A stretch of 33,958 nucleotides of DNA, from assembly GCA_024710805.1 (NCBI GenBank), contig JANJUB010000033.1, positions 1 through 33,958 of the forward strand, read 5' to 3'. The notes beneath the pieces were generated by a model that was not told the origin of the DNA, searched no databases, and saw only the letters and a list, made by a program, of their open reading frames with translations. A program made the translations under genes and the position numbers. Origin of the DNA: Fimbriimonadaceae bacterium. GTDB taxonomy: Bacteria > Armatimonadota > Fimbriimonadia > Fimbriimonadales > Fimbriimonadaceae. Position 1 is the first letter of the stretch, and the number at the start of each line of letters is the position of its first letter. Shown piece after piece: positions 21,200-24,413 of this stretch.

Positions 21200-22420
21200 G
21201 TGGGCTTTGGCTTAGTGGCCGTTCTCTCTATCGTCGCGTTAACGGTGCCCGCGATGGTGGTGCCTGCAGTTGTCGGCGCAATCCTGGCCGCCTTTGCTTC
21301 CGGGATCGGATTCCAGCGGAGGACGCTGGGCGCCCGACGAGACCTTGAGCGTGAGCGAAGCCGGGCTTCCCTGCTCGAAGCCAAGCTGGATAGCCAGCGC
21401 AACGCGGTCGATCTTCTTGCTGAAGGACTCGAGATCGCGGTCTTTCTTTGCGACGCCCGCCCGATCATTCTCTACGCCAACCGCAAGGCGACCGAAATGT
21501 TCAAGTTCGAAAACCCGGTCGGACGAACGATGCTGGCCGTAACGCTATCGTATGACCTCGAGTCCCTCGTGACGGCGTGCGCCCAGACTCGCGAGAAGCA
21601 GCATGCCGAACTCACGTTTGCCTATCCCGACGAACGAACGGCGCTTGCCGAGGCGTGGATGGAGCCCGAGGGAGATCGCGTCTTCCTCTCCCTTTACGAA
21701 ACCACCGACCTCCGGCGGTTGGAGCGGGTGCGCACGGACTTCGTTGCCAATGTATCGCACGAACTTCGGACCCCACTGACGACCATCCGGGCCATGGCCG
21801 AAACCTTGCAAGACGAACCTGGTAACCGCGAGTTGCTCGATCGTTATCTGGCGAAGATCATCGCCGAGGTCGATCGACTGTCGCTCATTGCCAATGATCT
21901 TCTCATCCTGAGCGCCGCTGAAAGCAACCCCGTTCGCAAGCATGGGTGCAACATCGCCGAAGTGTTCCGCTCGGTGGTCCAACAGCTCGGTCCGAAAGCC
22001 CACGACAAGGGACTCAAACTGGAGTTCACGGGCCCAAGCGACTTAGTGATCGAGGCAAATCAAGCTCAGATGAGCCAGGTGGCCATCAACCTCGTCGACA
22101 ACGCGATCAACTACACCAGCGAAGGGTCCGTCGAGGTTGTCGTTCAGCCCGAGGGTGATCAGGTCGTGATCATGGTTCGGGATACCGGGATGGGAATCGC
22201 GAGCGAGCACCTGCCGAGGATCTTTGAGCGCTTCTACCGAGTGGATAAGGGACGGTCGCGCTCGACTGGGGGAACCGGCCTGGGTCTCAGCATCATCAAA
22301 CATATTGTCGAGGCGCATGGGGGTCAGGTCAACGTCCAGAGCGCACTCAATCAGGGCTCCACGTTCTTCATCCGCTTGCCGGTCGGGCACGCGAGCGAGC
22401 CCGAGATCAGCGAGGCCTAG
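21200..22420 (+). CDS. PhoR-like membrane sensor histidine kinase
   Basis: A 406-residue kinase with an N-terminal hydrophobic hairpin (about 3-36), a short coiled coil, a PAS-like domain (about 68-170, VFLCDARPIILYANRKATEMF), a HisKA H-box VSHELRTPLTTIRAMAETL with predicted phosphoacceptor His187, and a complete ATPase domain (N-box NLVDNAINYTS, DTGMGI, FERFYRVDKG, GGTGLGLSIIK). The plan is that of PhoR/WalK-type kinases. No response regulator gene is adjacent. Start choice is uncertain: the GTG at 21200 has no well-spaced SD, while GTG at 21215 lies 11 bases after AGAGGTGG. It is followed by the c-di-AMP riboswitch, which belongs to the next gene. Confidence 0.9.
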   Translation: MGFGLVAVLSIVALTVPAMVVPAVVGAILAAFASGIGFQRRTLGARRDLERERSRASLLEAKLDSQRNAVDLLAEGLEIAVFLCDARPIILYANRKATEMFKFENPVGRTMLAVTLSYDLESLVTACAQTREKQHAELTFAYPDERTALAEAWMEPEGDRVFLSLYETTDLRRLERVRTDFVANVSHELRTPLTTIRAMAETLQDEPGNRELLDRYLAKIIAEVDRLSLIANDLLILSAAESNPVRKHGCNIAEVFRSVVQQLGPKAHDKGLKLEFTGPSDLVIEANQAQMSQVAINLVDNAINYTSEGSVEVVVQPEGDQVVIMVRDTGMGIASEHLPRIFERFYRVDKGRSRSTGGTGLGLSIIKHIVEAHGGQVNVQSALNQGSTFFIRLPVGHASEPEISEA

Positions 22421-22454
22421 CGGAACCGAAGCTCCCATTGCAGAGTAACATAAC

Positions 22455-22606
22455 GGTGACGCCGAATCCAGTTTCGGAGCGGGGGACCCAACTTTGGGGG
22501 CGAATCGCGCAAGCGAAGGGTAGCTTTTGGCCCGAGCCCGTCAGCTAACCCCGTAGGCTTATCGAAAGAGGTTACGGCCTCTCTACGCGGCGCGGTTTGG
22601 ACGCGC
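22455..22606 (+). promoter_or_regulatory. c-di-AMP (ydaO/yuaA) riboswitch
   Basis: The segment matches the conserved core of the ydaO/yuaA aptamer (Rfam RF00379) in order: GCCGAATCC (22461-22469), GCGGGGGACCCA (22479-22490), TTGGGGGCGAATC (22494-22506), GAAGGGTAGC (22515-22524), and the hallmark CCCGTCAGCTAACC with CGTAGGC (22537-22558). This aptamer binds cyclic di-AMP in pseudo-twofold fashion and usually turns expression off. Downstream, AGAGG/CCTCT (22567-22582) and GCGCG/CGCGC (22590-22606) form two hairpins; the second ends at the base before the AAGGAG ribosome site. With no T-tract, translational control is more likely than termination. The only gene it can control is the one at 22622. 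Confidence 0.93.
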
Positions 22607-22621
22607 AAGGAGATTTTGCGT

Positions 22622-22963
22622 ATGAGCGAGAATATGGAACGATTCCGGTCGATGGACGGAAGCGATGGCTTCGTGATGAAGCCCTTTATTCACATCATCT
22701 TTCAGCGGGGCCCGGTCCCCGAGGTCGGCATCAACGGTTGCCGCATCGAAGACGTGATCGAGGTCTTGCAAGAGCGGCTGCTGGACCACCAGGGCCGCGA
22801 CTTGGGTTGTGAGGAGAATGCGGCGGCCCTGTATCACTTGGAGGCGGCCCACGAGGCATTGCTTCAAAGGCGCCGACGGCGCGAACAGCAGGGCGTCATC
22901 AACACGCGCGAAGGCCACGTCAGTGTTCCCTTGGCTGAAGTGCTCTCGGAAGCCGAGCGCTAG
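22622..22963 (+). CDS. Small protein resembling Tad1-type cyclic-nucleotide sponge
   Basis: A 113-residue protein with no signal or membrane segment. PFIHIIFQRGPVPEVGINGC and RIEDVIEVLQERL, then CEENAAALYHLEAA and a basic run RRRRRE followed by QGV, match a family of small phage and prophage proteins (FQxGPxxEVGVNG ... CRENALAxxxLEEA ... RTxxR). I believe this family includes the anti-Thoeris sponge Tad1 with its helical hairpin. Asn66, Arg83 and Arg87 keep the spacing I recall for the Tad1 ligand-contacting Asn92, Arg109 and Arg113; the Phe and first Arg of that set are replaced here by His and Glu. Assignment is from memory. The ATG has AAGGAG nine bases upstream. It is the sole target of the c-di-AMP riboswitch. 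Confidence 0.6.
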   Translation: MSENMERFRSMDGSDGFVMKPFIHIIFQRGPVPEVGINGCRIEDVIEVLQERLLDHQGRDLGCEENAAALYHLEAAHEALLQRRRRREQQGVINTREGHVSVPLAEVLSEAER

Positions 22964-22974
22964 CGGGCACCGAG

Positions 22975-23739
22975 TCAGTTGCCGACCGGGATCGTTTCGC
23001 GCTCGGTCGGCTTCTGCTTGGCCACGAGGGTATCGGTGTTGGCCCAGTCGTTGGCAATCGTAATCGGGGTGCCGAGATCGATCCAGTGCCAGATCCACTT
23101 GGCCGGGTTGCCCTCTCGGACCAACAGCCGAACACACCCGTGCGATGCCGGCCGCTTCGGCACACTCGGATAGCCGTGCATGAAGTAGCCGTTCCAGATT
23201 TGAACCGCCCACGGCATCGGTGAGTTGTCGTACTTGCGCGAGTAGCGCATGCGCGACTTCTCTGGCCCCGCCGACCAGGTGCCGTTGGGAGTGGTGTAGC
23301 CACGCCGTCCGGTTGAGACTCGGGTCTCGATGATGAGGCGGTCGCCTTGAAAAGCCCGGAGCTTCTGTTCGGCTTTGTTGATGACCACGCGCTTGGTGCC
23401 AAGCCGAACGATGAAGTCGCGGCCCTCGAACCAGATCGGAACTTCGTTGCCTTCGCGAGAACCGACTCCGACGCCTAAGGCGGTCAACTCGCGCAACCGT
23501 GCGAGCCGGGTTCCATCGAAGAGCAGGCGGGGCGTTTGGACCGGAGTCCCATTGACGTAGAAGCCGCCCTCATCGCTGGTCATGTCCCAGCCGACTCGAA
23601 ATCCGATTTCTTTGATCGGCACGAAGGTGATGCCCGGCTCATCGGCAAAGGTGATCCCGTCGATCACATCCACTTGAGCCTGGGCCATGGCCGAAGCAAC
23701 CGCCAACAACGCAACTGTCCGAAATCTCATCCCCTTCAT
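22975..23739 (-). CDS. L,D-transpeptidase (YkuD) with stalk-like N-terminal domain
   Basis: An exported peptidoglycan cross-linking enzyme. From the ATG at 23739 it has 254 residues: signal peptide (MKGMRFRTVALLAVASAMAQAQ), a domain like the copper-amine-oxidase N-terminal / stalk fold (about 30-75, FVPIKEIGFRVGWDMTSDEGGFYVNG), then the YkuD domain with FMHG (His188) and SHGCVRL, catalytic Cys202. The active site is intact. In-frame TTG at 23757 overlaps the preceding stop and ATG at 23730 is also possible; GACAAT stands seven bases before 23730. The gene converges on the riboswitch-controlled gene, 11 bases away. Confidence 0.88.
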   Translation of the reverse strand: MKGMRFRTVALLAVASAMAQAQVDVIDGITFADEPGITFVPIKEIGFRVGWDMTSDEGGFYVNGTPVQTPRLLFDGTRLARLRELTALGVGVGSREGNEVPIWFEGRDFIVRLGTKRVVINKAEQKLRAFQGDRLIIETRVSTGRRGYTTPNGTWSAGPEKSRMRYSRKYDNSPMPWAVQIWNGYFMHGYPSVPKRPASHGCVRLLVREGNPAKWIWHWIDLGTPITIANDWANTDTLVAKQKPTERETIPVGN

Positions 23740-23753
23740 TGTCGGCTCTTGAA

Positions 23754-24413
23754 TCAATCCCTTTCAGCGATCGGTTCTCCGCGATCCCACAGAGGCTCAT
23801 CCTGCAACGGGCGCATGATCAGAATGACCGCAGAGCCGCTGGCCGTCTTCGCGTGATTGAGCATGGCGATCCCGTGGATGCGCCGTCCGCGCCCCGTGAT
23901 CATCGGCACGCCGCCCGCATGCCCCATCTGCAGGCGTTGCGGCTCCCGAATGTAGTTCATGTGGTGGATCTGGTGGATAGCCCTAAGCTCCTCGGGGACG
24001 AATCGCTCGGCGGGGGTGCCGACCAGCGTCTCCTCAGGAACCTCGAGCATTTCGGCAGCCTGGGCATTCCCCAACTGGATGATCCCGTCATCGCCGATGA
24101 TCAGCATCGCTTCCGGCGCACTCTCGATGAACTGCTTGAAGACCGAGAGTTCACGGTCGAGTTGCTCTGACTTTGCCAGCAGTTGGTCGAGTTCTGCCTT
24201 CAGTTGGGCAACTCCAATTTCCGCGTTGGTCCGAACAAACGCGGCGACGAGTTCGGCCCGCGGGTGCGGCCCGAGCTTCGACCGGATCCGCAGCCAATAC
24301 GTGAGAACCGTAGATGGCGCGATGCCAATCTCGGCAGCGATGCCCTTGTCGGTATGGCCCTTCGCGGCCAGTTCAAGGATCAATCGCTCGCGCGGGGAAA
24401 GACTATCCGTCAT
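23754..24413 (-). CDS. LuxR-type HTH regulator with C-terminal PAS domain
   Basis: A 219-residue regulator with reversed architecture: the DNA-binding LuxR/GerE helix-turn-helix is at the N-terminus (LSPRERLILELAAKGHTDKGIAAEIGIAPSTVLTYWLRIRSKL, residues 5-47), then a coiled coil (about 67-90), then a PAS domain (about 93-200, APEAMLIIGDDGIIQLGNAQAAEML). LuxR regulators normally place the HTH at the C-terminus after a receiver or ligand domain. The motif order suggests PAS sensing of a ligand or redox state with no phosphorylation. The L,D-transpeptidase gene follows at once and may be in the same transcript. Confidence 0.85.
   Translation of the reverse strand: MTDSLSPRERLILELAAKGHTDKGIAAEIGIAPSTVLTYWLRIRSKLGPHPRAELVAAFVRTNAEIGVAQLKAELDQLLAKSEQLDRELSVFKQFIESAPEAMLIIGDDGIIQLGNAQAAEMLEVPEETLVGTPAERFVPEELRAIHQIHHMNYIREPQRLQMGHAGGVPMITGRGRRIHGIAMLNHAKTASGSAVILIMRPLQDEPLWDRGEPIAERD

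Follow-up and report, generated by a model that had tools for sequence, protein, structure and literature searches.

Sponge proteins of the Tad1/Acb2 fold are known from phage counter-defence, and Tad1 acts by soaking up cyclic-nucleotide signals. The window analysed here (the whole 33,958-nt stretch of DNA from an uncultured Armatimonadota bacterium of the Fimbriimonadaceae) raises the question of what such a protein would do in a bacterial chromosome, where a c-di-AMP riboswitch stands directly before the gene of a 113-residue Tad1-like protein.

The riboswitch and its leader

By homology, the leader of this gene is a c-di-AMP aptamer. RF00379 matched positions 22450–22575 of the forward strand over the full length of the model (1–134) at 88.1 bits (E 1.7e-19), where the gathering threshold is 38 bits, and this element was the sole Rfam match within the whole window; the sequence-only reading, which had named a ydaO/yuaA aptamer at this place, was correct on this point. 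The aptamer is also present in a congener (G001, the window's own genome being G000), and the Tad1-like proteins of the two are 97% identical. The congener record (L031, JADZEW010000008.1) is titled ‘Methanoregulaceae archaeon’, yet its gene content is that of Armatimonadota, and it is probably mislabelled. A literature search for c-di-AMP riboswitches of Armatimonadetes gave no paper. In the 3′ pseudoknot of the aptamer, the internal arm CUUUUG (22524–22529, forward strand) is complementary to CGAAAG (22563–22568), which lies within the 3′ arm CGAAAGAGG (22563–22571, forward strand), and a shifted 9-bp register of the arms, GUAGCUUUU/AGAGGUUAC, is possible as an alternative. Moreover, the arms covary among 79 riboswitches of the order, since arms of the same RNA form 7.01 bp on average compared with 6.12 bp for swapped arms (maximum of 400 swaps, 6.44 bp). 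The crystallised ydaO RNA carries an internal UCCUUCG and, complementary to it, CGAAGGA on the 3′ side, at the same places as the arms in the window (PMC5393176).

The distance from the 3′ end of the aptamer to the ATG is 46 nt. All elements of this leader are on the forward strand: CCUCUCU (22578–22584), a GC hairpin GCGCG-GUUUGGA-CGCGC (22590–22606) between this anti-SD and the SD, which has an identical stem and a different loop in G001, and the Shine-Dalgarno sequence AAGGAG (22607–22612), 9 nt upstream of the ATG. The CCUCUCU element has two possible partners, because its CCUCU part (22578–22582) is able to pair with AGAGG (22567–22571) of the 3′ arm, which would make the arm an anti-anti-SD, and its UCUCU part (22580–22584) is able to pair with GGAGA (22609–22613) of the SD. 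In RNA folding, holding the 3′ arm in the pseudoknot lowered the openness of the SD both in the window (0.65 to 0.06) and in G001 (0.86 to about 0.1); a change as large was matched by only 1 of 400 shuffles of the mid-segment in the window and by 2 of 400 in G001. No intrinsic terminator was found between the aptamer and the start codon, and control by a transcription terminator was rejected for this reason. Closure of the SD with the pseudoknot held, its rarity among shuffles and the missing terminator together fit translational repression by c-di-AMP, and the reading preferred by the RNA modelling, for the window as for the congener, is thus a translational OFF switch. Both modes have been described for the ydaO class: one published switch is a transcriptional OFF switch that is repressed by c-di-AMP (PMC6488665), and another is probably translational (PMC9960051).

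The folding results suggest that the leader probably switches between two states. At high c-di-AMP, the ligand-held 3′ pseudoknot would take the CGAAAGAGG arm, CCUCUCU would be left free to pair with the SD, and translation would be blocked; at low c-di-AMP, AGAGG would pair with CCUCU and the SD would open. Switching by folding was seen in G000 and G001 and was absent in the other linked leaders tested, and a general switching platform for all linked leaders was rejected on these grounds. A long-range pairing outside the aptamer, AGAGUAAC/GUUAC..CUCU, was also rejected, because G001 does not keep it.

A host homologue of phage Tad1

The gene behind this leader (22622–22963 including the stop codon, forward strand) encodes a protein of 113 aa (MSENMERF...SEAER) that is genuinely homologous to phage Tad1. 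With the single sequence, phmmer found gp184 (8y6v, E 2e-8), CmTad1 (8kbb, 2.6e-8) and cbTad1 (7uav, 3.7e-4) in the PDB, and a profile built from 33 relatives brought the values to 2.2e-14 for CmTad1, 1.1e-10 for gp184 and 8.1e-10 for cbTad1; phrog_2428 also matched the protein (E 1.1e-18). In the AlphaFold2 model (pLDDT 81), two long C-terminal helices, H42–57 and H64–90, match the Tad1 hairpin. The best Foldseek match was 8kbb (E 8.5e-6, 37% identity over 78 columns, rmsd 1.4), and only Tad1 entries were returned at E ≤ 0.001; VIA-align placed eight Tad1 entries on top with Z of 7.3–8.6, the next row having 5.9, and the list from BFVD, which holds predicted viral structures, was headed by proteins named Acb2/Tad1 hairpin (8.2e-7). 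Thus the likeness to Tad1 that the sequence-only reading had proposed holds in both sequence (phmmer 2.6e-8, profile 2.2e-14) and fold (8kbb, E 8.5e-6). The Pfam hairpin model PF24729 (Acb2_Tad1_hairpin), a search suggested by the sequence-only reading, gave no report at E ≤ 0.1 for the window protein or for 33 homologues. The same model also misses a protein of Vibrio phage VP-1 that BFVD names an Acb2/Tad1 hairpin protein, which indicates that the model is insensitive; the window protein is not assigned to this Pfam entry. No chain labelled Acb2 was among the PDB matches in the sequence, profile and fold searches, and this absence is not evidence.

The motifs FQRGP...EVGINGC, CEENA and RRRRRE noted earlier are all present in the ORF, and none of the 33 homologues departs from N66, R83 and R87, or from Q57, C63 and E65. 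In the 7uav chain sequence, the first three correspond to residues 93, 110 and 114, which are taken as N92, R109 and R113 of cbTad1 if the chain has one extra N-terminal residue. These are the residues that we take to be the ligand contacts of cbTad1, and the conservation proposed for N66, R83 and R87 agrees with the alignment. The position of Tad1 F82 is occupied by H56 in the window protein and by F in most homologues. The N terminus is ∼20 residues shorter than that of Tad1 and is modelled with low confidence, and the N-terminal sheet has two predicted strands compared with four in Tad1.

The neighbours of the gene belong to the host. A sensor kinase with PAS, HisKA and HATPase domains (21200–22420, forward strand, Pfam) ends 29 nt before the aptamer; no promoter-like site was found on the forward strand between the kinase gene and the Tad1-like gene, and co-transcription of the kinase and the Tad1-like gene is possible. 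Downstream, an L,D-transpeptidase of the YkuD type (22975–23757, reverse strand, Pfam PF03734, E 3.5e-20) is convergent, and beyond it lie a LuxR/PAS regulator and then type II/IV secretion ATPases. Pfam searches of the neighbours found no phage or defence genes. Because these are host genes, the locus is part of the host chromosome rather than of a prophage, as had been supposed from the sequence. A Tad1-like homologue was found in 68 of 291 Armatimonadota genomes, all of them in Fimbriimonadales and mostly in the window's own family, with one or two copies per genome that cluster on the tree, and the named homologue records are mostly from Fimbriimonadaceae and other Armatimonadetes. A plasmid search gave no Tad1-like homologue, and relatives on viral contigs are 35–39% identical; an origin from a prophage or plasmid was rejected, because the neighbours are host genes, plasmids gave no match and the viral relatives are distant. 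The Tad1-like gene is a host gene of the order Fimbriimonadales. The check for a diadenylate cyclase that had been proposed was positive, as the enzyme is encoded at C150 of the window's genome and was found in 60 of 61 relatives, nearly always as a single copy.

Recurrent linkage and the small helical ORFs

A co-oriented RF00379 element within about 1 kb upstream of a Tad1-like gene was found in 16 genomes from eight genera (eight genomes in g30, two in g1, and one each in g24, g11, g8, g17, g21 and g19). About 0.02 cases are expected by chance, and chance linkage was rejected for that reason; because the linkage recurs in eight genera, it is not an accident of one assembly. The linkage label changes five times on the protein tree by parsimony, at least two of these changes being forced by well-supported branches, and shuffled labels need 13.8 changes on average. 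At the majority of the other Tad1-like loci, even a threshold of E < 0.5 gave no riboswitch within 1.5 kb, hence control by c-di-AMP does not extend to the family in general; most g30 genomes also have a second, unlinked Tad1-like copy.

Among the 16 linked genomes, the riboswitch is directly before the Tad1-like gene in the window and the congener only, and one or two ORFs, each about 90–130 aa long, intervene in the remaining 14. Relatives of these intervening ORFs are helical proteins encoded singly after other c-di-AMP riboswitches in the order. The small helical ORFs gave no Pfam, PDB-sequence or specific fold match, and the window genome's own small helical protein is modelled as a three-helix protein with no specific structural match. 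In the window's genome, a riboswitch precedes a small helical protein without significant Pfam match at L078 and L080 (C184 and C117), and the same arrangement occurs at L057, L082, L084, L044, L088, L106, L112, L115 and others. The small helical families behind Fimbriimonadales riboswitches are of about 90–110 aa and about 130 aa, and these riboswitch-led families are possibly a c-di-AMP regulon of the order. At L044 of G007, one c-di-AMP riboswitch is followed by two tandem small helical ORFs, the second of which resembles the ORF directly before the Tad1-like gene in G017 and G131. Tails that end in F-S-S/A or EFSATGA are found at the C termini of Tad1-like proteins (G017, G149, G151 and genus g19) and in the 130-aa family (L088, L114, L115). 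At six further loci (L048, L050, L067, L091, L093, L102), the first large ORF behind RF00379 looks like hisB (imidazoleglycerol-phosphate dehydratase) from a reading of the sequence, with the riboswitch about 200–290 nt upstream; this would be an unusual target.

Function, alternatives and known systems

Acb2 binds 3′,3′-cAA with high affinity and Tad1 binds it weakly (review PMC12043709), and Acb2 of T4 binds 2′,3′-c-di-AMP with a Kd of about 62 nM (PMC12657218). This published binding, together with the place of the gene in a c-di-AMP regulon, makes it most likely that the Tad1-like protein binds a cyclic nucleotide. From homology, the protein would on balance adopt the helical hairpin of Tad1, in which the N/R/R residues are conserved, and bind a cyclic nucleotide in an oligomer. 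That the aptamer, the OFF switch and such a cyclic-nucleotide-binding hairpin are all present together has slightly less than an even prospect. The best explanation of the locus is a host gene in the c-di-AMP regulon whose product is a Tad1-family protein with putative cyclic-nucleotide binding. Several observations weigh against this explanation. Most Tad1-like loci lack a riboswitch, and in 14 linked genomes small helical ORFs separate the switch from the Tad1-like gene; many of the order's riboswitches control ORFs of this kind at sites that have no Tad1. The binding of c-di-AMP reported for Tad1 is weak, the N terminus is shorter than that of Tad1, PF24729 gives no report, and the switching model, which works for the window and its close congener, fails for the other leaders tested. 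As for the ligand, a TIR_2 domain occurs once in the window's genome, so that gcADPR-type signals are also possible. It is a tentative proposal that the bound signal would be c-di-AMP, in which case the protein would lower free c-di-AMP further when it is already low. Because c-di-AMP represses a tested ydaO-type switch (PMC6488665) and the leader models as OFF, a sponge would then make a double-negative, self-reinforcing loop. Of the feedback loop proposed by the sequence-only reading, the parts, riboswitch and Tad1 homologue, stand, but the models would give the loop a double-negative rather than a homeostatic sign, so that the earlier reading was probably wrong on the sign. Feedback by a sponge is plausible, though clearly short of probable.

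There is a modest chance that the protein is a receptor or effector instead of a sponge, made at low c-di-AMP to signal the c-di-AMP that is left, or another cyclic nucleotide, to a partner; the small helical proteins encoded in its operon are possible candidates for this partner. The order of switch, small helical ORF(s) and Tad1-like gene is kept in several genera, related small ORFs recur behind other c-di-AMP riboswitches, and the low, tree-clustered copy number agrees with this role, but the window and the congener have no intervening ORF, and the known relatives act as sponges. The recurrence of these ORFs without Tad1 behind riboswitches of the order, and the many Tad1-like genes without a switch, also suit an improbable alternative in which the riboswitch serves the small helical protein(s) and the Tad1-like gene is a passenger, joined to the switch in g1 by deletion of the intervening ORF; however, the linkage is kept over eight genera, and the leaders of two species are matched to the SD of the Tad1-like gene, with both stems conserved and the loops varied.

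Homology to phage sponges could instead point to a domesticated anti-defence gene (anti-CBASS or anti-Thoeris) that restrains cyclic-nucleotide immunity of the host, the c-di-AMP switch being secondary. All 13 genomes of the family with a SMODS CD-NTase carry a Tad1-like gene, a weak association (hypergeometric 0.014, a value that ignores relatedness). Nevertheless, 50 of the 63 genomes of the family that bear a Tad1-like gene have no SMODS match, there are no phage or defence neighbours and no plasmid copies, and the viral relatives are just 35–39% identical. The SMODS match is absent from the congener and from the window's genome, which makes a defence-related role less likely, and we regard domestication as unlikely. 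It is very improbable that the fold was kept as a structural or protein-binding module while ligand binding was lost: the shorter N terminus and H56 at the F82 position would agree with a loss, but most homologues have F there, and N66, R83, R87, Q57 and C63/E65 are invariant across the family.

Riboswitch and host Tad1-like gene are a genuine pairing of two known kinds of part that is apparently undescribed. The novelty is in the combination and the host setting, and neither the fold nor the RNA class is new. The pairing suggests that bacteria use the Tad1 fold inside their own signalling, and a conserved host version, which gene order connects in eight genera with a signal reportedly bound by Acb2 in vitro, is a directly testable case of this fold in housekeeping signalling. 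A cellular Tad1-family protein may be a buffer or receptor of c-di-AMP in core signalling, with c-di-AMP-repressed synthesis that reinforces low c-di-AMP. If true, this would be, to our knowledge, the first c-di-AMP sponge in a host regulon. It would link phage sponges with a host protein family. The pairing also bears on the direction of descent, whether phage sponges came from host proteins or the reverse, and brings a target of a new type into the c-di-AMP riboswitch regulon.

Compared with Tad1 (Thoeris anti-defence 1, which as a hexamer takes up gcADPR, CDNs and CTNs; CmTad1 8kbb, cbTad1 7uav/8kbe, gp184 8y6v), the window protein has homology over residues ∼18–97 (E 2.2e-14) and shares the helical hairpin and the N/R/R ligand-type residues, whereas it differs in its N terminus, with ∼20 residues fewer and two predicted strands, and its gene is chromosomal in the host, conserved in Fimbriimonadales, under a c-di-AMP riboswitch and without defence neighbours. 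With Acb2 (anti-CBASS 2) it has a hairpin superfamily in common by name (Pfam PF24729, ‘Acb2/Tad1, hairpin domain’), and Acb2 is reported to bind 3′,3′-c-di-AMP and 2′,3′-c-di-AMP; in contrast, PF24729 does not report the window family, the searches gave no direct match to an Acb2 chain, and beta strands are predicted in the window protein but are missing from the Acb2 protomer. The riboswitch element itself has the complete consensus of the ydaO/yuaA class (RF00379), including the pseudoknot arm, and its control is probably translational, similar to the proposal for nlpC of C. glutamicum (PMC9960051), but the gene that it targets codes for a putative cyclic-nucleotide-binding protein and not, as is usual for the class, for cell-wall hydrolases, K+ transport or osmolyte functions.
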